Position numbers and translations under genes: made by a program. The notes below the pieces were generated by a model. That model did not search any database and had not been told where the DNA came from. It saw only the letters and a program-made list of their open reading frames with translations. A DNA stretch of 44,575 nucleotides from Candidatus Zhuqueibacterota bacterium (GTDB taxonomy: Bacteria; Zhuqueibacterota; Zhuqueibacteria; Oceanimicrobiales; Oceanimicrobiaceae). Below are positions 15,360-41,117 of this stretch, piece by piece; within the stretch, counting starts at the first letter, position 1; every line of letters starts with the position of its first letter. The stretch covers positions 1 to 44,575 of the forward strand of contig JAJDAE010000010.1 of the NCBI GenBank assembly GCA_029262035.1. The letters are read 5' to 3'.

Positions 15360-15902
15360 ATGGCTGACGAAATTAAAGATGAAAATGCTGAAGATTCCGA
15401 AGAGTTAGAATCTCAGGAATCTCAGGAATCTCCGGAATCTCAGGAACCTTCTGAACCTCAGGCCGAAGAAGCAGACGAAGAGAAATTAGAGAATGCCGGC
15501 GAGCAGTCAGAGGAAGAAGAGCCAGCTGAATTTGAAAGATCTGCTGCCGAGATTCTTGCAGAACAGGCGATGCTTGCGGAACTGGAGGCCTCTGCAAATG
15601 AGGAAGAACCAGAGGATGTTTTCCCGGTTAGCACGGATGGTGGCGCCTTCCCGGAAAATACAAAAAACCTGGAACTGCTTCTTGATGTTTCATTAAACGT
15701 TACGGTGGAGTTGGGTCGTAAAGAAATGCGTTTTGGTGAAGTTCTAAATCTAGGCAAGGGTTCATTAGTTGAACTTAATAAAATTGCCGATGAGCCTGTA
15801 GATATTTATGTGAATCAGAGCAAAATAGCTGAAGGCGAAGTTGTGGTAGTTGATGATCACTTTGGCGTTAGAATAACAAGGCTTGAAACACCCAATAAGT
15901 GA
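15360..15902 (+). CDS. fliN: Flagellar motor switch protein FliN with long acidic N-terminus
   Basis: FliN is the C-ring base protein. The SpoA/FliN domain is at about residues 100-176 (LLLDVSLNVTVELGRKEMRFGEVLNLGKG in part, then VDIYVNQSKIAEGEVVVVDDHFGVRI in part). The first 90 or so residues are Glu/Ser/Gln/Pro-rich, and contain four copies of a 9-bp repeat, with a short helical patch (SAAEILAEQAMLAEL, about 61-75) just before the linker. That patch could be a docking peptide. No FliM-type middle domain and no CheC domain (FliY) is seen. Confidence 0.93.
   Translation: MADEIKDENAEDSEELESQESQESPESQEPSEPQAEEADEEKLENAGEQSEEEEPAEFERSAAEILAEQAMLAELEASANEEEPEDVFPVSTDGGAFPENTKNLELLLDVSLNVTVELGRKEMRFGEVLNLGKGSLVELNKIADEPVDIYVNQSKIAEGEVVVVDDHFGVRITRLETPNK
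15408..15443 (+). repeat. Four tandem 9-bp repeats inside fliN
   Basis: Four units of GAATCTCAG (the third is GAATCTCCG) follow one another in frame, encoding Glu-Ser-Gln/Pro triplets in the disordered N-terminus of FliN. Because the unit is a multiple of 3, slippage would change tail length without breaking the gene. Confidence 0.75.
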
Positions 15903-17604: not shown

Positions 17605-18390
17605 ATGTTCTATGAAATTTTTGGATTGACCGAATCCCAGTTTATCGGGTTCTTTTTATCTTTTATACGCATCGCGGCTTTAATGTCGGTTGCACCGATT
17701 TTGGGCAGTCAGTCAATTCCTGTGCAGGTTAAAGTGTTTCTGTCACTTTTTCTTTCGGTAACAATGTTGCCGGCATTAAAAGAGCAGCCGCAACTCGAAA
17801 CAATAACTTTGTTAGGCCTGTTACCATTAATTTTTAAGGAAATAGTGTTGGGACTTTTTTTAGGATATAATGCAAAATTTATTTTTGAGAGCTATCAGTT
17901 CGCCGGTAGAATGGTTAGCACGCAAATGGGGCTGGGTATGGCAAATCTGGTGGACCCGGATAGTGGTCAGCCCGTTACGCCAATTGGAAACATTTATACT
18001 TTTTTTATAATGATGGTGTTTTTATTTCTAAACGGTCATCATCTTCTTATATCCGCACTGTATAAAAGTTTTGAAATTTCACCTGCAGCGAGTTATAAGT
18101 TTGCTTTGGTAGGCGCTCGCTGGGAGATGGTATCATTATTTAATGAAATTTTCATTATTGGAATTAAATTGGCCGCACCTTCTATGGCTACTTTATTCCT
18201 TATTGAAGTTTGTATGGGTATTATGGCGCGAATTGTACCTCAAATGAATATATTTTTTATTGGATTACCCGTCAGGCTGGGCGTTGGATTATTTATCGTT
18301 ATTGCATCTCTGCCAATGTATTATTTGTTTTTTTCAAATCACCTTTTGGAGTGGAAGTACGACCTATTTACGATTGTAAAATTTTTTTAG
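17605..18390 (+). CDS. fliR: Flagellar export gate protein FliR
   Basis: FliR is the single-copy subunit that completes the FliPQR gate. The 261-aa membrane protein shows family motifs: SFIRIAALMSVAPILGSQSIP (in part, near residue 18), GQFAGRMVSTQMGLG-like YQFAGRMVSTQMGLGMANLVDP (in part), and a hydrophobic C-terminal half. Next gene (HD-GYP) starts 9 nt after the stop with GGAG before it. Confidence 0.95.
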   Translation: MFYEIFGLTESQFIGFFLSFIRIAALMSVAPILGSQSIPVQVKVFLSLFLSVTMLPALKEQPQLETITLLGLLPLIFKEIVLGLFLGYNAKFIFESYQFAGRMVSTQMGLGMANLVDPDSGQPVTPIGNIYTFFIMMVFLFLNGHHLLISALYKSFEISPAASYKFALVGARWEMVSLFNEIFIIGIKLAAPSMATLFLIEVCMGIMARIVPQMNIFFIGLPVRLGVGLFIVIASLPMYYLFFSNHLLEWKYDLFTIVKFF

Positions 18391-18399
18391 GAGCATAAT

Positions 18400-19314
18400 A
18401 TGGATTTTCAAATTCATGAACTGGATTCGGATGTTTTGGGCAAGAAGCTTGGTCAAAAACTTTTTAGTCCCAAGGGCGGCTTGCTTTTAGGTATGGGCGC
18501 ACAAATAAAGGAATTTCATTTTAAGAAAATTAAAGAAGTTGGCTATAGAAGCATTTACTTATTGAATAATCAAGAAAATGATGTTTTGAATTCCACAGGC
18601 CATTTGATCAGCGAAAAGATTCGTGCGAGTGCGCCAATAACTCTGAAGAGTATTTACAGTAAATTGCACGGCAGAGACAAAATACAGATCTCAAATGCAA
18701 AAAAAGAGTTGGGAGCGCTTGCAGATCTTTTAATTCGGGATGTGAATATAAAAGCTGCCCCCCCGGATATTATCGACTTGAAAAGAGAAAAGGACTACAT
18801 CTACCAACATGCCATAAATGTGGCCGCATACGCGATTATGATTGGTGAAAGCATTCAGTACCATCAATTAAAATTATATGATTTAGCGCAGGCTGCCCTG
18901 TTAGCTGATTTCGGCATGTTGAATCTTGATCCCGAGATTCTTTATAAGGACGGTGAGCTGGACGAAGAGGAGGTTGAGGAAATGCACAAGCATACCATGC
19001 TTGGCTTTCAGCATCTTAGTAGAAATTGTTTTATTAAGGGAATTGTTGCTGCAGTTTGCCTGCAACATCACGAACGTTATGATGGTTCCGGTTATCCAAG
19101 AGGACTTAATGGAGAAAATATACATGAATATTCTCGTATTATCGCCCTGGCAGATGTCTTTGATGCTTATACATCAGATCGGCCTTATCGGCGTCTGCAT
19201 ACAATTGATGAAGGGCTTGCTTACATTAAAAAGTATGCCGGCGCAAAGTTCGACCCACGAATGGTGGCAAGCTTCTTGAAGTTTTTTGGTTTCGAGGATG
19301 AGGATTCGTTATAG
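18400..19314 (+). CDS. HD-GYP-family protein, first of a tandem pair, metal-binding His lost
   Basis: HD-GYP proteins hydrolyse cyclic di-GMP. This 304-aa protein has an N-terminal domain of about 120 aa without a recognised family, then an HD-GYP domain: H137, then A169-D170 where the catalytic HD should be, H196/H198, H223-H224 and an intact G231-Y232-P233 with a typical LADVFDAYTSDRPYR tail. Loss of the HD histidine predicts weak or no hydrolase activity, so it may sense or bind the nucleotide, or pair with the next gene. The gene lies between fliR and flhB and is likely cotranscribed with both. Confidence 0.85.
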   Translation: MDFQIHELDSDVLGKKLGQKLFSPKGGLLLGMGAQIKEFHFKKIKEVGYRSIYLLNNQENDVLNSTGHLISEKIRASAPITLKSIYSKLHGRDKIQISNAKKELGALADLLIRDVNIKAAPPDIIDLKREKDYIYQHAINVAAYAIMIGESIQYHQLKLYDLAQAALLADFGMLNLDPEILYKDGELDEEEVEEMHKHTMLGFQHLSRNCFIKGIVAAVCLQHHERYDGSGYPRGLNGENIHEYSRIIALADVFDAYTSDRPYRRLHTIDEGLAYIKKYAGAKFDPRMVASFLKFFGFEDEDSL

Positions 19315-19341
19315 TATGGTTTTTAAATAGGAGAGAAAAGC

Positions 19342-20235
19342 GTGGGCGTTATCATCGAATCTTTAACCCCCCAGATAATCGGTCAGCGGTTGGGTCAGAG
19401 TTTATACAATCAAACTGGTAATCTTTTGTTGCGCAAAGGCGTCGAAATAAATCAAAGGTATTTCGACTTTTTTGATGAAAAAGGATACGCAAGTATTTTA
19501 TTGCTCGATAGAGATTTTGATGAATGGGAAGGACTTCAAAATATAAATTCAGACCGCTTTTTAATGACAGCCCCTTTTGCGTTAAAAAGAATTTTTAGAA
19601 AGTTAAAACGCGAAGAAAATATTTCTTCCCGCCAGGCAAAAAGTGAATTACTTTCATTGGCGGAGTCTCTTTTGGTTCATATACAAAATACACTAAGGGT
19701 GCCGCCAAAGATTATAGAAATGAAACGACAGGCAGACTATCTCTATCAACACTCCGTAAATGTCGCTGTCTACTCTGTATTTTTAGGCCAAAAATTATGC
19801 TTTCAGGATAGTAAATTGCTGAATCTTGTTGTTTCAGCTCTATTGCATGATTTTGGAATGGAATTTGTCGACGATGAAATTGTTAACAAAACGACCAAGC
19901 TCAAAACAGATGAGTTTGAGAAAGTTAAAGAGCATACGACCAAAGGTTTCAGTCATCTTGTTAGAAATTGTTCGTTTGAAGGATTGACTACAGTAGCCTC
20001 GGTACAGCACCATGAGCGCTTTGACGGGGGCGGATACCCTAAGGCTTTGAATGGGGAAAGCATTCACGAATATTCCCGCATTATCACTCTGTCTGATTTT
20101 TTTGACGCCTGGACTTCGGATAGGCCACATAGGCGCTTGAATACCGTTGAAGATGCAATGGAGTTTATCAACGCCAACAAGAAAAAAATTTTCGATCCCC
20201 AAATGGTTCAATATTTTGCTGAGACGTTAGGATAG
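19342..20235 (+). CDS. HD-GYP-family phosphodiesterase-like protein, second of a tandem pair
   Basis: This 297-aa protein has the same layout as the preceding one, with key residues at identical positions: H169-D170 (HD intact) and G231-Y232-P233. The usual HDIGK is HDFGM, so the Lys is replaced by Met, as it also is in the first copy. The alignment without shift shows the pair arose by tandem duplication. The start is GTG with GGAGAG about 9 nt upstream. It is the better candidate for c-di-GMP hydrolysis; acting near the export gate is inference from position. Confidence 0.87.
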   Translation: MGVIIESLTPQIIGQRLGQSLYNQTGNLLLRKGVEINQRYFDFFDEKGYASILLLDRDFDEWEGLQNINSDRFLMTAPFALKRIFRKLKREENISSRQAKSELLSLAESLLVHIQNTLRVPPKIIEMKRQADYLYQHSVNVAVYSVFLGQKLCFQDSKLLNLVVSALLHDFGMEFVDDEIVNKTTKLKTDEFEKVKEHTTKGFSHLVRNCSFEGLTTVASVQHHERFDGGGYPKALNGESIHEYSRIITLSDFFDAWTSDRPHRRLNTVEDAMEFINANKKKIFDPQMVQYFAETLG

Positions 20236-20262: not shown

Positions 20263-21330
20263 ATGGCAGAGGAATCTTTTCAAGAAAAAACCGAAGAGGC
20301 CTCCCCGCGAAGGCTGCAGGAGGCTCGTGAAGACGGCAATGTCCCTAAAAGTGCTGAATTCAATTCTGCCCTTATCCTGATTTTTGGTTTGATGACTTTA
20401 AATATCCTCAGCGTACAAATATTCCGAAAATTAATTCGTGGGTTTCAGATTTTTTATTCGGAATTAAATACGTTTTCCCTTTCTATCGATGGCTTTAGAA
20501 CTTATGCTTTTCTTGGCGTGCAATCCATTTTCGATCTAATCGGACCTTTTTTGATTGTCATCGCTTTGGTTGGAATTGTTTCAAATGTTTCTCAAGTTGG
20601 ATTTCTTTTCACTCTTAAGCCGATACAGCCAAAATTTTCAAAAATCGATCCTATAAAAGGTTTGGGTAAATTTTTCAAATTAAAATCTTTAGTTGAACTG
20701 ATTAAGGGGTTGCTGAAATTAACCATAATTGGAATTATTGCATATAACACGATAATCGGTCATCAAGACGAGTATCCACTTTTGCTGAATTATACACCCG
20801 TTCAGATAATATCCTTTATTGCCTCAGTGATGTTTGACTTGGCGATGCGCACATTAGGTGCTTTATTGATTCTGGCATTTTTTGATTTGATGTATCAGAG
20901 GTGGCAGTACAAACGTGATATGCGAATGAGTAAACAAGATTTAAAAGATGAGTCAAAGCAATCGGAAGGAAATCCGGAGGTTAAAGGGGCAGTACGTGCT
21001 ATGCAGCAGAAACGCGCCAGGGAAAGGATGATGGACAAAGTACCGGAAGCCGATGTCGTAATTACCAACCCGACAAGACTTGCCGTCGCATTGAAGTATG
21101 ATCCCGCTAATATGGATGCCCCAATAGTTCTGGCAAAAGGCGCGCGGCTCATTGCTAAGAAAATCAAGGAAATTGCCGCAGAACATGGGATTCCGATCTA
21201 CGAAAATAAGCCCTTGGCGCGGTCACTATATAAACTGGCTGATGTTGGCAAAGCAATACCTTTTGAACTGTTTCATGTTGTGGCCGAAGTTTTCGCATAT
21301 GTTCATCAATTGAAGAATCGAAGGAATTAA
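20263..21330 (+). CDS. flhB: Flagellar export switch protein FlhB (NPTR variant)
   Basis: FlhB is the gate subunit that changes substrate class from rod/hook to filament after self-cleavage. The 355-aa product begins with the family segment EKTEEASPRRLQEAREDGNV (in part), has four membrane helices, and a cytoplasmic domain. The cleavage motif, NPTH in most homologues, reads NPTR here, with Asn at residue 269. The Asn-Pro pair that does the chemistry is kept; the His is replaced. The rest (AVALKYDPANMDAPIVLAKG in part) is normal. Confidence 0.95.
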   Translation: MAEESFQEKTEEASPRRLQEAREDGNVPKSAEFNSALILIFGLMTLNILSVQIFRKLIRGFQIFYSELNTFSLSIDGFRTYAFLGVQSIFDLIGPFLIVIALVGIVSNVSQVGFLFTLKPIQPKFSKIDPIKGLGKFFKLKSLVELIKGLLKLTIIGIIAYNTIIGHQDEYPLLLNYTPVQIISFIASVMFDLAMRTLGALLILAFFDLMYQRWQYKRDMRMSKQDLKDESKQSEGNPEVKGAVRAMQQKRARERMMDKVPEADVVITNPTRLAVALKYDPANMDAPIVLAKGARLIAKKIKEIAAEHGIPIYENKPLARSLYKLADVGKAIPFELFHVVAEVFAYVHQLKNRRN

Positions 21331-23442: not shown

Positions 23443-24613
23443 AAAATTTAAAGCCTCCACCATGCAGGAAGCAATGCAATTGGCAAAAAAGGTTTTTGGA
23501 GATGATGCTATCGTATTGCATTCAAGGAAAGTAAAGGAATCCAATCTTTCCGGTACGGATATTGACGAGTTGGTTGAAATTACTGTGACGGCAGATATGA
23601 ATCCTGAACAGAAGGAATTGGCAGGCCCGGCAGTATCTAAGCAATTTTATACACCAACAGATGCTAAACGACAATCTCAACCCAAGCCCAAGCCGGTGCG
23701 GGAGGCTGAACCCACTTTGTCATCCGTAAATAGTAAGAAATTGGTTGATAACACAATTACAATCCGTAGTGAAATTGGTCGTTTGCAAACTTCTATAGAT
23801 CGGCTTCGGGACGATATCCGGCGCTCACATACAAATATTTTGCCTGAAACTTATCGATTCTTAGAGCAGGAAAAAGGTTTGGATGCGGAGCTGGCAGCTG
23901 AACTTGTACAGAACATTTTTTTAAAGCTTGAAGGCGCTGATATCAAAGATGATAGGAAAATTCTGCAAGTATTGCAGGCTGAAGTCCTTAGCTCCATCAA
24001 TATCAATGATAAGATGGATTTAATACCCGGACAGCCCAAGCTGATTTGTCTGGTAGGACCTACCGGTACCGGTAAAACGACATCGATTATAAAATTAGCA
24101 ACTCATCCTGATTTTTATGGGCGCCATAAAGTCGGTTTAATTACAAGTGATACATACCGCGTAGCAGCAGCCGCTCAATTAAAAACTTTTGCAGCTTTGG
24201 CCAAAATTCCGTTGGAGATCGCTTATGAGCCTGATGATTTCGGGCGGGCTATTCAAAGGTTTCGGGACATGGATGTCATCCTGGTTGATACAGCCGGACG
24301 GAGTCCTTTAAATGAGAAACATCTCAGTGATTTAAAAGAATTTTTTGCTGTCGCGAAACCGGATGAAGTGCACCTGGTGCTGGAAATTACCGCAAGCTCG
24401 GCAAATCTTATAGACTCTGTTTCAAATTTTTCTACAATTCCGATTAGTAATTTAATTGTTTCAAAAGTTGATGAAACCATACGGCTGGGTAATATTTTTA
24501 ATATTAGCAAAAAAATTGCCCTTCCGATTTCATTTTTGACTAATGGTCAAAAAGTTCCTGACGATATACTATTAGCGGACTCAGAAAAAATTGCGAGAAT
24601 GATTATTAGTTAA
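23435..24613 (+). CDS. flhF: SRP-type GTPase FlhF
   Basis: FlhF is a GTPase of the Ffh/FtsY class that sets the site (often a pole) and number of flagella. The 392-aa product has the family N-terminus (KASTMQEAMQLAKKVFGDDAI in part), an NG domain with G1 motif GPTGTGKTTS from residue 208, and DTAGR with Asp at 285. It overlaps flhA by 8 nt, so the two are translationally coupled. The usual partner flhG (a MinD-type ATPase), normally next, is absent; a 91-aa membrane protein is there instead. Confidence 0.95.
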   Translation: MIRKFKASTMQEAMQLAKKVFGDDAIVLHSRKVKESNLSGTDIDELVEITVTADMNPEQKELAGPAVSKQFYTPTDAKRQSQPKPKPVREAEPTLSSVNSKKLVDNTITIRSEIGRLQTSIDRLRDDIRRSHTNILPETYRFLEQEKGLDAELAAELVQNIFLKLEGADIKDDRKILQVLQAEVLSSININDKMDLIPGQPKLICLVGPTGTGKTTSIIKLATHPDFYGRHKVGLITSDTYRVAAAAQLKTFAALAKIPLEIAYEPDDFGRAIQRFRDMDVILVDTAGRSPLNEKHLSDLKEFFAVAKPDEVHLVLEITASSANLIDSVSNFSTIPISNLIVSKVDETIRLGNIFNISKKIALPISFLTNGQKVPDDILLADSEKIARMIIS

Positions 24614-24888
24614 TGTTGACGAGACTTTCTTTCAAGGCCAGTTTTTTTGCTGCACTTATGACTTTTACATCCTGCTTTTTACTGGATATTCCTTTGGGAG
24701 AATGTACAAAACGCTCTCTAATTGTATTTGTCGGTTTTTATTTAATCCTGATTTCATTCTTTATAATCCTGCGGTTGATAATAAACCCGAAGGATGAAGC
24801 GCCTGAACCTGAACCGGAAAAAGAAGTCGAGAATGAGGAAAAAGAGCAGATTGCCGAAGGAGATAACATAGGAGTCGAGATTGAATAA
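24613..24888 (+). CDS. Small two-helix membrane protein with acidic tail, unknown
   Basis: I do not recognise this 91-aa protein. It has two hydrophobic segments (about 8-25 and 34-57) and a Glu/Pro-rich cytoplasmic tail of about 30 residues ending EGDNIGVEIE. It overlaps flhF by 1 nt (TAATG) and the start of fliA by 8 nt, so it is translated with both. The same GDNI-x-(V/I)-x-I ending recurs in the 92-aa protein after fliA. The slot is where flhG usually lies. A membrane adaptor for FlhF or sigma regulation is conceivable but unproven. Confidence 0.75.
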   Translation: MLTRLSFKASFFAALMTFTSCFLLDIPLGECTKRSLIVFVGFYLILISFFIILRLIINPKDEAPEPEPEKEVENEEKEQIAEGDNIGVEIE

Positions 24889-27811: not shown

Positions 27812-28948
27812 TTATGAAATAAAATTAAGATAATTATCTTGGGTAACAACTTCAAATGAAGCATTTGGATACGCTTTTTTCCAATTCCCAGGAATTTTAA
27901 TCTTAGATTTTTTCCACTTAATCTCATAACCAAAAAGATTGCCATCGCGTTCTTCAACCAAATCAATTTCACTTCTATCGTAAGTGCGCCAAAAGTAAGA
28001 ATTTACAGATTTTCTACTATATTCATTCTTTTTTATACGTTCCATGAAAATGTAGTTCTCCCAGAGTTGGCCTAAATCATTGCGAATGTCAACCGGGTTA
28101 AAATTGTTAATTAGCGCATTTCTGATTCCATTATCATAGAAAAAGTACCTGTTATTTTTAGTGATTTCTTTACGTAAATTTCTGCTAAAACCGGTTAATT
28201 TATAAATCACAAACACTTTCTCTAACAAGTCAAGATAACGTTCAACGGTATTTTTACTCATACTAAGCTGTGTGCCTAATTCACTCATGGAACACTCTTT
28301 CCCAATTTGGAAAGCCAATAATTGTAACAGCTTAACCAATTTATTTGCATATTTTATACCCTCAAGCTCAAGAATATCTTTGAATAAATAAGAGTTAACA
28401 ATTTCCCTAAGGTATTCCTGGCGTAGCAAATTATCTTTCATCTTTACACATTCTGGATATGAACCGTAAATCAGGCGCGATTCGAGATTGGCTTCTGCTT
28501 CATGCCGTTTTTCAATATTTGAAATTTCCATTTGGGATAATGGAAGCAACTTCAGAACATATTTTCGTCCTGTTAACGGCTCGCCTAGCCCCCGGGCAAG
28601 TTCAAATGATGATGAGCCTGTTGCTATAATTTTAATACCTGGAATATGATCCACTATCAATTTTAAATTCAATCCGATATTTTGAATATATTGGGCTTCA
28701 TCAATAATCAAAAACTCATGCTCGCCAACAAAATCGGTGAGTTTATTGATGGACTGGCTTTCGAGGTTTTGCCTCACGATAATATCGTCTCCATTGACAA
28801 ATAATACTTTGCTATTTCTGTCTAATTCCTCGAGAAATTTATTTATCAAAGTGGTTTTTCCAACACGTCGTGCACCAAAAATAATTAAAACTTTAGATGG
28901 CTGCAGCAGATAGTGAATGTTTTTAATTTGTTTTTGTGGGATATACAT
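27812..28948 (-). CDS. AAA ATPase with DUF4143-type C-terminal domain
   Basis: The 378-aa protein has a Walker A GARRVGKTT at residues 25-33, a Walker B FLIIDEAQ near 80, a sensor-like IIATGSSSFELARG near 107, and a C-terminal part with a winged-helix-like segment and a nuclease-like end (SEIDLVEERDGNLFGYEIKWKK in part, near 330). This is the common AAA_14/DUF4143 family, whose members are widespread, often horizontally exchanged, and of unclear function. It is transcribed against the flagellar genes and splits the locus. AGAAGAG lies 7 nt before the ATG; a 38-bp near-palindrome lies just upstream. Confidence 0.85.
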   Translation of the reverse strand: MYIPQKQIKNIHYLLQPSKVLIIFGARRVGKTTLINKFLEELDRNSKVLFVNGDDIIVRQNLESQSINKLTDFVGEHEFLIIDEAQYIQNIGLNLKLIVDHIPGIKIIATGSSSFELARGLGEPLTGRKYVLKLLPLSQMEISNIEKRHEAEANLESRLIYGSYPECVKMKDNLLRQEYLREIVNSYLFKDILELEGIKYANKLVKLLQLLAFQIGKECSMSELGTQLSMSKNTVERYLDLLEKVFVIYKLTGFSRNLRKEITKNNRYFFYDNGIRNALINNFNPVDIRNDLGQLWENYIFMERIKKNEYSRKSVNSYFWRTYDRSEIDLVEERDGNLFGYEIKWKKSKIKIPGNWKKAYPNASFEVVTQDNYLNFIS

Positions 28949-36574: not shown

Positions 36575-37468
36575 ATGAGAGTCACCAATAGAATGATTGC
36601 TAAGCAGATGCTAACAACAATTTCAAAAAACCAGGGATTAGCAGCAAAGCTGCAATTAGACATTGCCACAACCAAAAAAGTCAGGCGGCCTTCTGATGAT
36701 CCGACCGGGGTGATTCAACTTGGAAGATTCAATGCATTGGTCAGCCGGAATGATCAGTACCTCAAAAATATGAGCACAATGGATAATTTTTTAACCAATT
36801 CCACTGCCGCTTTGGATAATGCCCTAAACATCGTTGAGCAGGCTAAAGATATCGCAATAAGTGGTGCTTCGGGTGTAACCAGCGATGAGGCCAGAGTTTC
36901 AATGGCGAATCAGGTTGACCTGCTTATTGACTCAATGGTTGATATTGGAAATTCAAAATACAATAACCGCAACCTGTTTGCGGGCACTCTGACAAGCGGT
37001 ACAGATTCTTATACGCGGGTAGGAGATGTTATTACTTATAACGGTAACGACAAATCGATCACTGGTACAATTGGTTTTAGTACAGATGTGACATATAATA
37101 AAACGGGTACTGAAGTCTTTAACCCTTCCGGCGGTCCTGATTTATTTGCAACACTCGTCGCTTTAAAGCAGGGTCTTGCGGGAAATGATGTTGACGCCGT
37201 TCAGGCTGAATTGACAAATATCGAATCCTCTAAGGATCATTTGATTGCTGTTATATCGCACCTCGGAATTTTACAAGACAGGTTGAGTTCAACTGAGGTT
37301 ATGATCTCAAATCAAAACATTAGTTTTGCCGATCAAATTTCAAGAATTCAGGACACGGATATGGTGGCAACCATAGTTAATTCACAAGTTTTGGGAAATG
37401 CAATTACAACTGGCTTAAGGTCTATGGGCGAGGTTATACAAATAAGCTTAATAAATTTTATTAGTTAA
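36575..37468 (+). CDS. flgL: Hook-associated protein FlgL (HAP3)
   Basis: FlgL is the second junction protein. The 297-aa product starts with the flagellin-like MRVTNRMIAKQMLTTISKN, has the family segment KKVRRPSDDPTG near residue 34 and a flagellin-like C-terminus (TDMVATIVNSQVLGNAITTGLRS in part). Size and the distinct middle domain fit FlgL rather than flagellin. It ends the recognisable flagellar gene run. Confidence 0.94.
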   Translation: MRVTNRMIAKQMLTTISKNQGLAAKLQLDIATTKKVRRPSDDPTGVIQLGRFNALVSRNDQYLKNMSTMDNFLTNSTAALDNALNIVEQAKDIAISGASGVTSDEARVSMANQVDLLIDSMVDIGNSKYNNRNLFAGTLTSGTDSYTRVGDVITYNGNDKSITGTIGFSTDVTYNKTGTEVFNPSGGPDLFATLVALKQGLAGNDVDAVQAELTNIESSKDHLIAVISHLGILQDRLSSTEVMISNQNISFADQISRIQDTDMVATIVNSQVLGNAITTGLRSMGEVIQISLINFIS

Positions 37469-38069: not shown

Positions 38070-39731
38070 ATGCCCACTTTGAGTAAAAAGGATGCTAAGC
38101 AAAAAAATAAGATTATTGCACTTTTCCGGAAAGGCGATACTGAAAGCGCACTCTCCGAAGTAACGTCTGCCCGGAAAATAGCGCCAAATAATCATGAGTT
38201 TTTTTATCTTGAGGGGATGATACTTGGCTCCCGCTCGAACTATGCTGACGCATTTCGGGCATTGGCCAGGGCAACTGAACTAAATCCCAAGCATGGCGAA
38301 TCTTTTTTTGAGATAGCCTATCTTCAAATGGCGCTTTGCAGGTTCAACCTTGCTGAAGCCAATTTTAAGAAAGCACTCACACTCAATTTCAATAAAAAAG
38401 AATGTTCTACATATATCGCCCGAATAAGGTCGGTTGCAAAAACAAAAGACGTCACCTTATCCGCTTGCCTGATCGTTAAAAACGAAGAGAAATTTCTACC
38501 CGGATGCCTGAAAAGCCTTGAGACAATTGCCGATGAAATTGTAATTGTAGATACAGGCTCTACGGATGAAACCATACAAATTGCCGAAGAGTTTGGGGCG
38601 AAAATATTTCATTATAAATGGAAAAACGATTTTGCAGACGCCCGCAATTTCGCGAACAGCAACGCAACCGGTGATTGGATCATTCAATTGGATGCCGATG
38701 AAGAGCTTTTTCCTGAAGATCAAAACAAAGTTCGGGAAATCATTCACCAGGGGACTTCTAACGGTGCCTATCTGGCTTTGCATAATCGCGTTTCCAATTC
38801 TTTTGGCGAGAATATGCCTTCCATTCATTATCTGGTCCGGCTATTCAGGAATTCTCCCGAATTTTATTATGAAAATGCAATACATGAAGTTTTACAAATT
38901 TCCGGTCATGTTGCGGCTGTAGATGTAAATATTTTGCACCATGGTTATAATCAAGATGCCGAATATATGAAAACCAAACGCAACCGAAATGCAGAAATTT
39001 TGTATCGCCGCCTTGAAGAGGATCCTGAAAAAGTTTCAACACTTTTTTACCTTTCCATGATGCACGTGGGGTGCCGGGAGTTTGATAAAGCAGAATCATT
39101 TGCATTGAAAGCAATTGAAAAAATTGACCCCGGGAATCCGTCGAAACAACATCTACTTTTAATGATGTTGAACAATTTAGCTTTAATCAAAAACATTGCA
39201 GGCGATTTGGATACTGTGATTGAGTATTCGGAAAGAGCCATCAGTATAAACGAGAATTTTCTCGATCCATACTTTTTTTTGGGAACGGCCTATTACCGCA
39301 AAGACGAGCTGAGCAAGGCAAAAGATGTTTATTCACGCTATCTCAAAAAGACTCAGGAATTAAAGGAACGACCGGTTTTTAATCTGTTTGGCAGTTCGGC
39401 CGATACTTATCTGTTCCAGGTTTATCACTTTCTGGGGAAAATACACCGCAAGGAACACGACGATAAACAGGCAGAATTTTTTATCCAAAAATCTGTAGAA
39501 TTAAATCCAAAATTTTGGATTGGTTATGTGGATTTGGCTTACATAAATAAAGATTGCGAGAACCTCAGGAAGTCAGCTGAGTATTTTGAGAAGGCTATAA
39601 ATCTCGCTAAGGAAAACCCGGATATAAACAAAGAAGATTCACTGCTATATTTTGATTTTGTGAATGCTGCAAAATCGTATATGCAGGTTTTGAAAATGAT
39701 TGGTCATCAAAATAAAGAAGCAGTCTCCTGA
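38070..39731 (+). CDS. TPR-linked family 2 glycosyltransferase
   Basis: The 553-aa protein has N-terminal TPRs (about 20-115), a GT2 domain (about 129-350: LSACLIVKNEEKFLPGCLKSL in part; IVDTGSTDETIQIAEEFGAK; D208-A-D210 as the metal-binding DxD) and C-terminal TPRs (about 320-545). This SunS-like domain mix is common in protein glycosyltransferases. Its location right after flgK-flgL suggests that it modifies a flagellar filament or junction protein in the cytoplasm. No maf or sugar-synthesis genes are near to support this. Confidence 0.87.
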   Translation: MPTLSKKDAKQKNKIIALFRKGDTESALSEVTSARKIAPNNHEFFYLEGMILGSRSNYADAFRALARATELNPKHGESFFEIAYLQMALCRFNLAEANFKKALTLNFNKKECSTYIARIRSVAKTKDVTLSACLIVKNEEKFLPGCLKSLETIADEIVIVDTGSTDETIQIAEEFGAKIFHYKWKNDFADARNFANSNATGDWIIQLDADEELFPEDQNKVREIIHQGTSNGAYLALHNRVSNSFGENMPSIHYLVRLFRNSPEFYYENAIHEVLQISGHVAAVDVNILHHGYNQDAEYMKTKRNRNAEILYRRLEEDPEKVSTLFYLSMMHVGCREFDKAESFALKAIEKIDPGNPSKQHLLLMMLNNLALIKNIAGDLDTVIEYSERAISINENFLDPYFFLGTAYYRKDELSKAKDVYSRYLKKTQELKERPVFNLFGSSADTYLFQVYHFLGKIHRKEHDDKQAEFFIQKSVELNPKFWIGYVDLAYINKDCENLRKSAEYFEKAINLAKENPDINKEDSLLYFDFVNAAKSYMQVLKMIGHQNKEAVS

Positions 39732-39734
39732 TTT

Positions 39735-41117
39735 ATGCGCCCTTCCGCTGTAAAAAAAAATAGACTCTCTTTGTGCATGATAGTAAAAAACGAAGAGCAG
39801 TATCTTTTCGACTGTTTGAAAAGTGTTGAAGATGTTGTTGATGAAGTGATTATCGTCGATACCGGCTCCGAAGACAGTACTCTGGATATAGCCGAAAAAT
39901 TCAATGCAAAAATTTATCACTATCCCTGGAAGGACGATTTTTCTGCTGCGAGAAATGAAAGCCTGAAACATGCAACCTGCGAATGGATTTTACAGCTTGA
40001 TGCTGATGAGCGGCTATGTACGGAAAGTAAAGCCGAGTTGAAAAAAAGGCTCAAAGATAAAAAATATATGTGCGTCAATGTGGTAATTGACAGCCCGAAA
40101 GCAGATCAGAAGAAAGGACATATAAGCCGGGCGCACCGGTTATTTCGCAATATACCCGGCATGAAGTATTCGGGTAGAATTCACGAGCAGGTCTCGCCGG
40201 CAGTGATGGCATTAAAAGGCAAAGAAGGCTTCTCATCCATTAAACTCATTCATCTGGGTTATGCAAAAGATGAAGGCGCAATGGAAGAAAAAAGTCTTCG
40301 AAATAGCAAGCTGCTAAAACAACAAATTTCCGAGGAGCCGAATAATGCCTATTGGCGCTTTACATATGCTCAAAATTTAGTTCTAAATCGCGAGTATAGT
40401 GAGGCAGAGGAGCATCTAAAAAAAGCTCTTGAGCTTGGCGGGTTACCTAAAGATATTCTATGCAGCATTTATAATAATTTTGCTGAGATAAAAATAAAAA
40501 AAGGTGATTATCGCAATGGAGTTGAACAGGCGCAGCAATCGATAAAGTTGAATCCTGCTCAAACCACTTCATATCTTTTAATGTATGAAGCCTACGGCTA
40601 TCTCAAACAGATCGAGAGTCAAATATTCTGTTTAGAAAAAACCATTGCACTTGTTGAGAAAAATAGCCGAAATACGAACCAAACGTCCCTTGAAGCTTAT
40701 GTTGATATTACCTCGCTTTATCTTAATTTAGGCGCACGGCATTTTCAAAGTAAAGATTTTCTGTCGGCGAAAGCCGCCTTCCAAAATGCTGTAAAAATAT
40801 CCCCTGAAAATATAATGGCTTTGCAGGGATATAGCGATTGCCTAATTCAAATTGGAGAATTTGATACCGCCGAGGAAGTTTTGTCTACTCTGGGTAATTT
40901 GAATCCGGACGATCCTGTAATTCTTGAAAAGCGGGCATTTATTTTCATGAGACTTAAAAAATTTGAACAAGCCATTACGGCCTATGAATTACTGAGTACG
41001 CGAGTCTCCCGGACTGTGGCTTTAAGTAAAAGATTAGCTGGTCTTTATAATTTGATTGGTGACAGGGAAACGGCTGAAATGTATCTCCAGGAATCCGTTC
41101 AAATTGGAGAGGGTTAA
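39735..41117 (+). CDS. Second TPR-linked family 2 glycosyltransferase
   Basis: This 460-aa protein starts directly with the GT2 domain (LSLCMIVKNEEQYLFDCLKSV in part, near residue 11; IVDTGSEDSTLDIAEKFNAK; D89-A-D91) followed by several TPRs (about 200-450). It lacks the N-terminal TPRs of its neighbour and begins 3 nt after it. The GT2 parts of the two share many identical stretches (IVKNEE, IVDTGS, AEE/EKF-AKI), so they are paralogues. The two may act in sequence on one protein. Confidence 0.87.
   Translation: MRPSAVKKNRLSLCMIVKNEEQYLFDCLKSVEDVVDEVIIVDTGSEDSTLDIAEKFNAKIYHYPWKDDFSAARNESLKHATCEWILQLDADERLCTESKAELKKRLKDKKYMCVNVVIDSPKADQKKGHISRAHRLFRNIPGMKYSGRIHEQVSPAVMALKGKEGFSSIKLIHLGYAKDEGAMEEKSLRNSKLLKQQISEEPNNAYWRFTYAQNLVLNREYSEAEEHLKKALELGGLPKDILCSIYNNFAEIKIKKGDYRNGVEQAQQSIKLNPAQTTSYLLMYEAYGYLKQIESQIFCLEKTIALVEKNSRNTNQTSLEAYVDITSLYLNLGARHFQSKDFLSAKAAFQNAVKISPENIMALQGYSDCLIQIGEFDTAEEVLSTLGNLNPDDPVILEKRAFIFMRLKKFEQAITAYELLSTRVSRTVALSKRLAGLYNLIGDRETAEMYLQESVQIGEG

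Follow-up and report, generated by a model that had tools for sequence, protein, structure and literature searches.

A tandem pair of HD-GYP proteins between the flagellar export genes fliR and flhB in a family of Zhuqueibacterota

In the window analyzed here, a stretch of 44,575 nt from a Zhuqueibacterota genome of an uncultured lineage, two adjacent genes encoding HD-GYP proteins, designated A and B, lie between fliR and flhB, the genes for the flagellar export gate protein and the export switch protein. The same order, A and then B between fliR and flhB, was found in all five genomes of the family with a full-length flhB. Judging from the sequences, we hold it an even call that the pair forms a cytoplasmic c-di-GMP module, specific to this lineage and expressed together with the export gate, in which A would be a non-catalytic receptor or partner.

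Gene order and active-site residues

The four genes are all on the plus strand, in the order fliR (17605-18390; Pfam Bac_export_1, E = 7.2e-66), A (18400-19314; 304 aa), B (19342-20235; 297 aa) and flhB (20263-21330; Pfam Bac_export_2, E = 4e-123). Both A (104.8 bits, E = 5.5e-30) and B (84.1 bits, E = 1.3e-23) score above the curated cut-off of 27.2 bits for the HD_5 profile (PF13487). The ORFs, profile matches and neighboring genes thus bear out the original prediction of two HD-GYP proteins of near-equal length in this position. The gap between fliR and A is 9 nt, while A and B, and B and flhB, are each separated by 27 nt. A and B are two separate ORFs, each with its own start and an AGGAG-like site upstream, and a simple scan detected no terminator-like site on the plus strand among the four genes. 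In a Pfam search, A and B matched HD families alone and had no homology to FliP, FliQ, FliR, FlhB or FlhA. They are 43% identical to each other, end to end, across 294 residues (E = 5e-84). In the AF2 models (mean pLDDT 91 for A and 87.6 for B), both proteins have an N-terminal domain, a helical linker and an HD-GYP domain; in A, these comprise a small domain at residues ~1-60, a linker at 72-114 and the HD-GYP domain at ~125-296.

Other features of the flagellar cluster can be mentioned here. The self-cleavage motif NPTH of FlhB reads NPTR in the window (gene at 20263-21330), and relatives have NPTR, NPTE, NPTH or NPTQ, so the His is not fixed. A FliN-type protein (15360-15902) is the sole C-ring protein found in the cluster, and the gene for FliM is on a different contig (G000:C247). 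Between flhF and a sigma factor gene, where flhG often sits, is a 91-aa ORF (24613-24888) that has no Pfam match and is 49% identical to a relative in the corresponding position of genome G006 (L049). An AAA_14/DUF4143 ATPase gene (27812-28948, minus strand) lies between two flagellar gene blocks. Two glycosyltransferase-TPR proteins (38070-41117), encoded shortly downstream of flagellin (36575-37468), possibly serve flagellin glycosylation.

The key residues of A and B occupy identical positions (169-170 and 231-233), as had been claimed. By motif extraction, codons 169-173 of A (18904-18918; GCT GAT TTC GGC ATG) encode Ala-Asp-Phe-Gly-Met instead of His-Asp-x-Gly-Lys, with the Ala at 18904-18906, and the same codons of B (19846-19860) encode His-Asp-Phe-Gly-Met, with the His as CAT. 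Asp170, Met173 and the GYP motif at 231-233 (19090-19098 in A) are common to both. For a wider comparison, the ten proteins of the family, A and B from each of the five genomes, were aligned to PmGH (4mcw), an active c-di-GMP phosphodiesterase with three irons. The PmGH ligands H189, D222, H250, H276, H277 and D305 correspond to H137, D170, H198, H223, H224 and D252 and are kept in all ten, and H221 corresponds to residue 169, the one metal ligand missing from window A. The position of E185 is Tyr (Y133) in 10/10, a residue that marks the two-metal Y/F subfamily of HD-GYP proteins (PMC4159591). The ligand set of this subfamily is complete (7/7) in every B and stands at 6/7 in window A. Also present in all ten is the RxxR motif (R261/R264), of the RxxR/K type that recognizes guanine (PMC10882959), and GYP is found in nine, the exception being GYL in A of genome G002.

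The Lys of the HDxGK motif (K225 in PmGH) is replaced by Met173 in all ten proteins, and the position of its Asp partner, D183, is K, E, S, A or G, with Asp in 0/10. In PmGH, alanine mutants at H221, K225 or D183 essentially abolished hydrolysis, and those in GYP, R314 or K317 did not (PMC4159591). Window A is very probably not a phosphodiesterase. Despite its metal ligands, B may also be a weak or inactive one, since it lacks both the Lys and the Asp partner, each essential in PmGH.

Duplication, histidine loss and selective constraint

In a maximum-likelihood tree of the family A and B proteins and 36 relatives from Bacillota, one branch each sets apart A (95/90), B (99/98) and the two together (100/100). 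The predicted origin by duplication is thus supported, and a single tandem duplication preceded the radiation of the family. Since Lys and Asp are missing from all ten proteins, their loss is most simply placed before this duplication, in the common ancestor of A and B.

The His has a different history. In B, residue 169 is His, with HD and GYP both intact, in 5/5 genomes. In A, it is Ala in the window genome (G000), Tyr in G007, Cys in G006 and His in both G001 and G002, with G001 and G007 belonging to the same genus; the codons at the lost His are GCT, TAC and TGC, against CAY. The degeneracy claimed for the first copy therefore holds in the window and is not uniform in the family, where A of G001 keeps HD and GYP and A of G002 keeps HD with GYL. 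An HD or GYP lesion is present in four of the five A copies and in none of the five B copies. The His loss is not unique to one sequence, being seen in A of three genomes. Sequencing error or recent decay was rejected as its cause, given three different residues in three genomes, the two changes that separate GCT and TGC from CAY, and a dN/dS of 0.22 for A. In the gate-protein tree, G000 groups weakly with G006 (78/65), and in the A tree it groups with G002 (92/70); with the residues found in each genome, these trees put the independent losses of the His in A at two at least and perhaps three. The asymmetry of about three losses in A to none in B has a chance of ~1 in 8 if losses are spread evenly, and could still be accidental, with so few events and five genomes known.

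The order of these losses can be approached from 101 distinct homologues outside the family, a sample picked by similarity to A and B and representing few independent origins, for which reason a Fisher p-value is set aside. These comprise 56 HDxGK, 2 HDxGN and 43 (F/Y/R)DxGM proteins and none with HDxGM (58:0:0:43 for the association of His and Met), such that Met at the Lys site is always paired with a missing His (43/43). HDxGM is thus absent outside the family and present within it, and the family apparently shows an intermediate step in what looks like a loss of Lys to Met first and of His later.

These residues bear on two alternative readings of the pair. The original prediction held that the duplicates had divided into a sensor and an enzyme. 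The sensor half of that claim is consistent with an A that is likely non-catalytic and with a His loss that recurs in A and never in B; the enzyme half is weakened by the Lys and Asp missing from B. Under such a division, A would sense c-di-GMP and control B, whose phosphodiesterase activity would reduce c-di-GMP around the new flagellum. The HD, GYP and full set of two-metal ligands in every B would fit this, and V-cGAP3 (5z7c) provides a precedent for a partial and a full HD domain cooperating in one chain. However, two residues that are each essential in PmGH are gone from B, and its HDxGM combination occurs in 0/101 homologues, so we regard the division as unlikely. A second reading, possible though doubtful, is that neither copy is catalytic and both act as receptors or scaffolds, the metal ligands of B serving fold stability only. 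The shared absence of Lys and Asp and the constant pairing of Met with a missing His outside the family favor this, as do DvhD and PA2572, inactive HD-GYPs with regulatory roles; but the strict retention of seven metal ligands in B across five genomes, at 51-88% identity, suggests that its metal site is in use.

Another possible reason for the lesions in A is that this copy is functionless and has been decaying under relaxed selection since the duplication, and the lesions do differ by genome (Ala, Tyr, Cys, GYL). However, A is full-length in five genomes and its remaining metal ligands are all intact. For G001 and G007, the single genome pair close enough for the calculation and one that spans the His-to-Tyr change in A, dN/dS was 0.22 for A and 0.19 for B, compared to 0.10 for fliR and 0.11 for flhB. 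Between G000 and G006, A is 70% identical, fliR 63% and flhB 65%. By these measures, A and B are both under strong constraint, and with A conserved like fliR and flhB, its decay is highly unlikely.

Distribution of the pair and its relatives

The survey of flhB neighborhoods proposed with the original prediction found the position of the pair conserved, with the fliR-flhB slot held across four genera (g1, g2, g3 and g7). Named relatives in the family are the MAGs Caldithrix sp. N075bin58 and CR04bin15 and KSB1 bacterium OFTM153. In G006, the two genes are split by a contig break, which leaves A beside fliR on one piece and B beside flhB on the other. Family genomes G003 and G004 gave no flhB match. 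In G005, a decaying flagellar operon (L152 8513-15348) keeps fliF, fliG, motA, motB and fliL, and fliOPQR and flhA are absent from the same stretch; here a remnant of a B-like gene adjoins an flhB remnant, so the pair was probably present before the flagellar genes were lost.

Elsewhere in the class, 18 other flagellated genomes had no HD-GYP insert, with flhB following fliR at a distance of no more than ~200 nt, and the slot is therefore not general. A search of 82 genomes found no A/B-type proteins elsewhere in the phylum, and the pair did not turn up outside the family when 84,980 species genomes were scanned by pattern. The nearest outside proteins in that scan, at most 39% identical, were from Bacillota. 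Some Bacillota HD-GYPs with (F/Y/R)DxGM, for example in Paenibacillus, Anoxybacillus and Sporomusa, share the small N-terminal domain and, like window A, combine a missing His with Met in place of Lys, but are only ~26-34% identical to A and B and have additional sequence at the C-terminus. Within 6 kb, their loci showed no flagellar genes resembling those of the window. This group is large in Paenibacillaceae, Bacillaceae and Sporomusaceae (L052-L123). At two loci of Negativicutes type (L050 5685-7050 and L051 3108-4336), an ordinary HDxGK HD-GYP gene lies directly 3' of a ylqH-like gene, which resembles the FlhB C-terminus and is itself preceded by a FliK-like, ylqG-like gene. On this basis, we considered whether relatives of A and B are tied to FlhB-like proteins in other lineages; the arrangement is suggestive, but it comes from just two loci that are phylogenetically separate, and the idea was set aside.

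Comparison with known proteins and possible role

Among the top structural relatives of the A and B models in Foldseek are PmGH, Bd1817 (over the entire length), PA4781 and DvhD. PmGH has the same domain as A and B (profile E = 3.3e-34, Foldseek 3e-11), with matching positions for the seven metal ligands and GYP. Unlike PmGH, A and B have Tyr for E185, lack K225 and D183 and have a different, smaller N-terminal domain, and window A also lacks the HD His. Bd1817 (3tm8), an unconventional HD-GYP protein of Bdellovibrio that is inactive on c-di-GMP (PMC4159591), aligns over the whole length including the N-terminal domain (~330 columns, TM ~0.57); it has retained a two-iron site but not the Tyr of GYP, whereas in A the GYP is intact and the His is missing. 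The HD-GYP domain of the Desulfovibrio receptor DvhD (9rbz, 9rc0), like that of A, has the fold without the HD His (Foldseek TM-score by target 0.71-0.76). DvhD binds c-di-GMP without hydrolyzing it, and its isolated domain dimerizes upon binding (PMC13090378), which makes it a direct precedent for an HD-GYP receptor that has lost HD. It is a membrane adhesion receptor and has SQ in place of HD and Met-Asn in place of the double His, whereas A has lost one ligand. PA2572 of Pseudomonas aeruginosa, an inactive YN-GYP protein that influences swarming (PMC3774798), resembles A, by its description, in having lost the HD motif and kept GYP; unlike A, it is not known to belong to a pair within a flagellar operon. 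Among the papers that could be searched, which exclude most subscription journals, none described an HD-GYP protein between fliR and flhB; degenerate and paired HD domains are already known, and such a pair at this site is new within that literature. V-cGAP3, which from its PDB name we take to be a 3'3'-cGAMP enzyme, is comparable to A plus B in its partial and full HD domains, but combines them in one polypeptide at a non-flagellar locus, whereas A and B are separate ORFs.

The window genome has 7 GGDEF, 3 EAL and 2 PilZ matches, and c-di-GMP is therefore expected in the host. It also has two HD_5 matches besides A and B, which with the EAL genes means that B is not the sole candidate phosphodiesterase. 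If the pair is a c-di-GMP module, A could bind the nucleotide through its retained GYP and RxxR without hydrolyzing it, and B, which holds the ligands of a two-metal center, could be a slow phosphodiesterase or a metal-stabilized receptor. The two would probably pair by HD-GYP and stalk contacts, as in HD-GYP dimers, and binding would alter the conformation of the pair. In this way, the level of c-di-GMP might tune flagellar export, assembly, motor output or the local c-di-GMP concentration as the gate is made. A caveat to the receptor reading is that two of the five A copies keep the His, and A of G001 differs from an ordinary site solely in Lys and Asp.

We infer an action of A and B on flagellar export from their position, which may reflect just co-expression. 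For an effect of c-di-GMP on export, the ATPase FliI provides a precedent (PMC12564702). Alternatively, and compatibly with the other readings, A and B could be ordinary genes for c-di-GMP turnover or sensing that are in the operon for co-expression and make no contact with the export machinery. Their sequences show no binding surface for FlhB, FliR or FlhA, and other flagellated members of the class manage without the pair; against this, the exact slot was held through four genera though other candidate phosphodiesterase genes exist. We consider this a tentative possibility. At the other extreme, A and B might be an obligate heterodimeric c-di-GMP receptor that docks on the gate, perhaps at FlhB or FlhA, and there switches export directly. 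This seems improbable, and we know of no flagellum with such a control point.

Flagellar control by c-di-GMP is usually described at transcription, at the motor (PilZ proteins) or at the export ATPase FliI. An HD-GYP pair fixed within the gate operon would indicate a further control point. The recurrent loss of a metal ligand in A suggests that the flagellar genes here include a signal receptor and not a conventional enzyme. Moreover, the family has HDxGM and xDxGM together, whereas the homologues sampled outside it show end states only (HDxGK, rarely HDxGN, and xDxGM). The step from enzyme to receptor is thus testable in orthologues.
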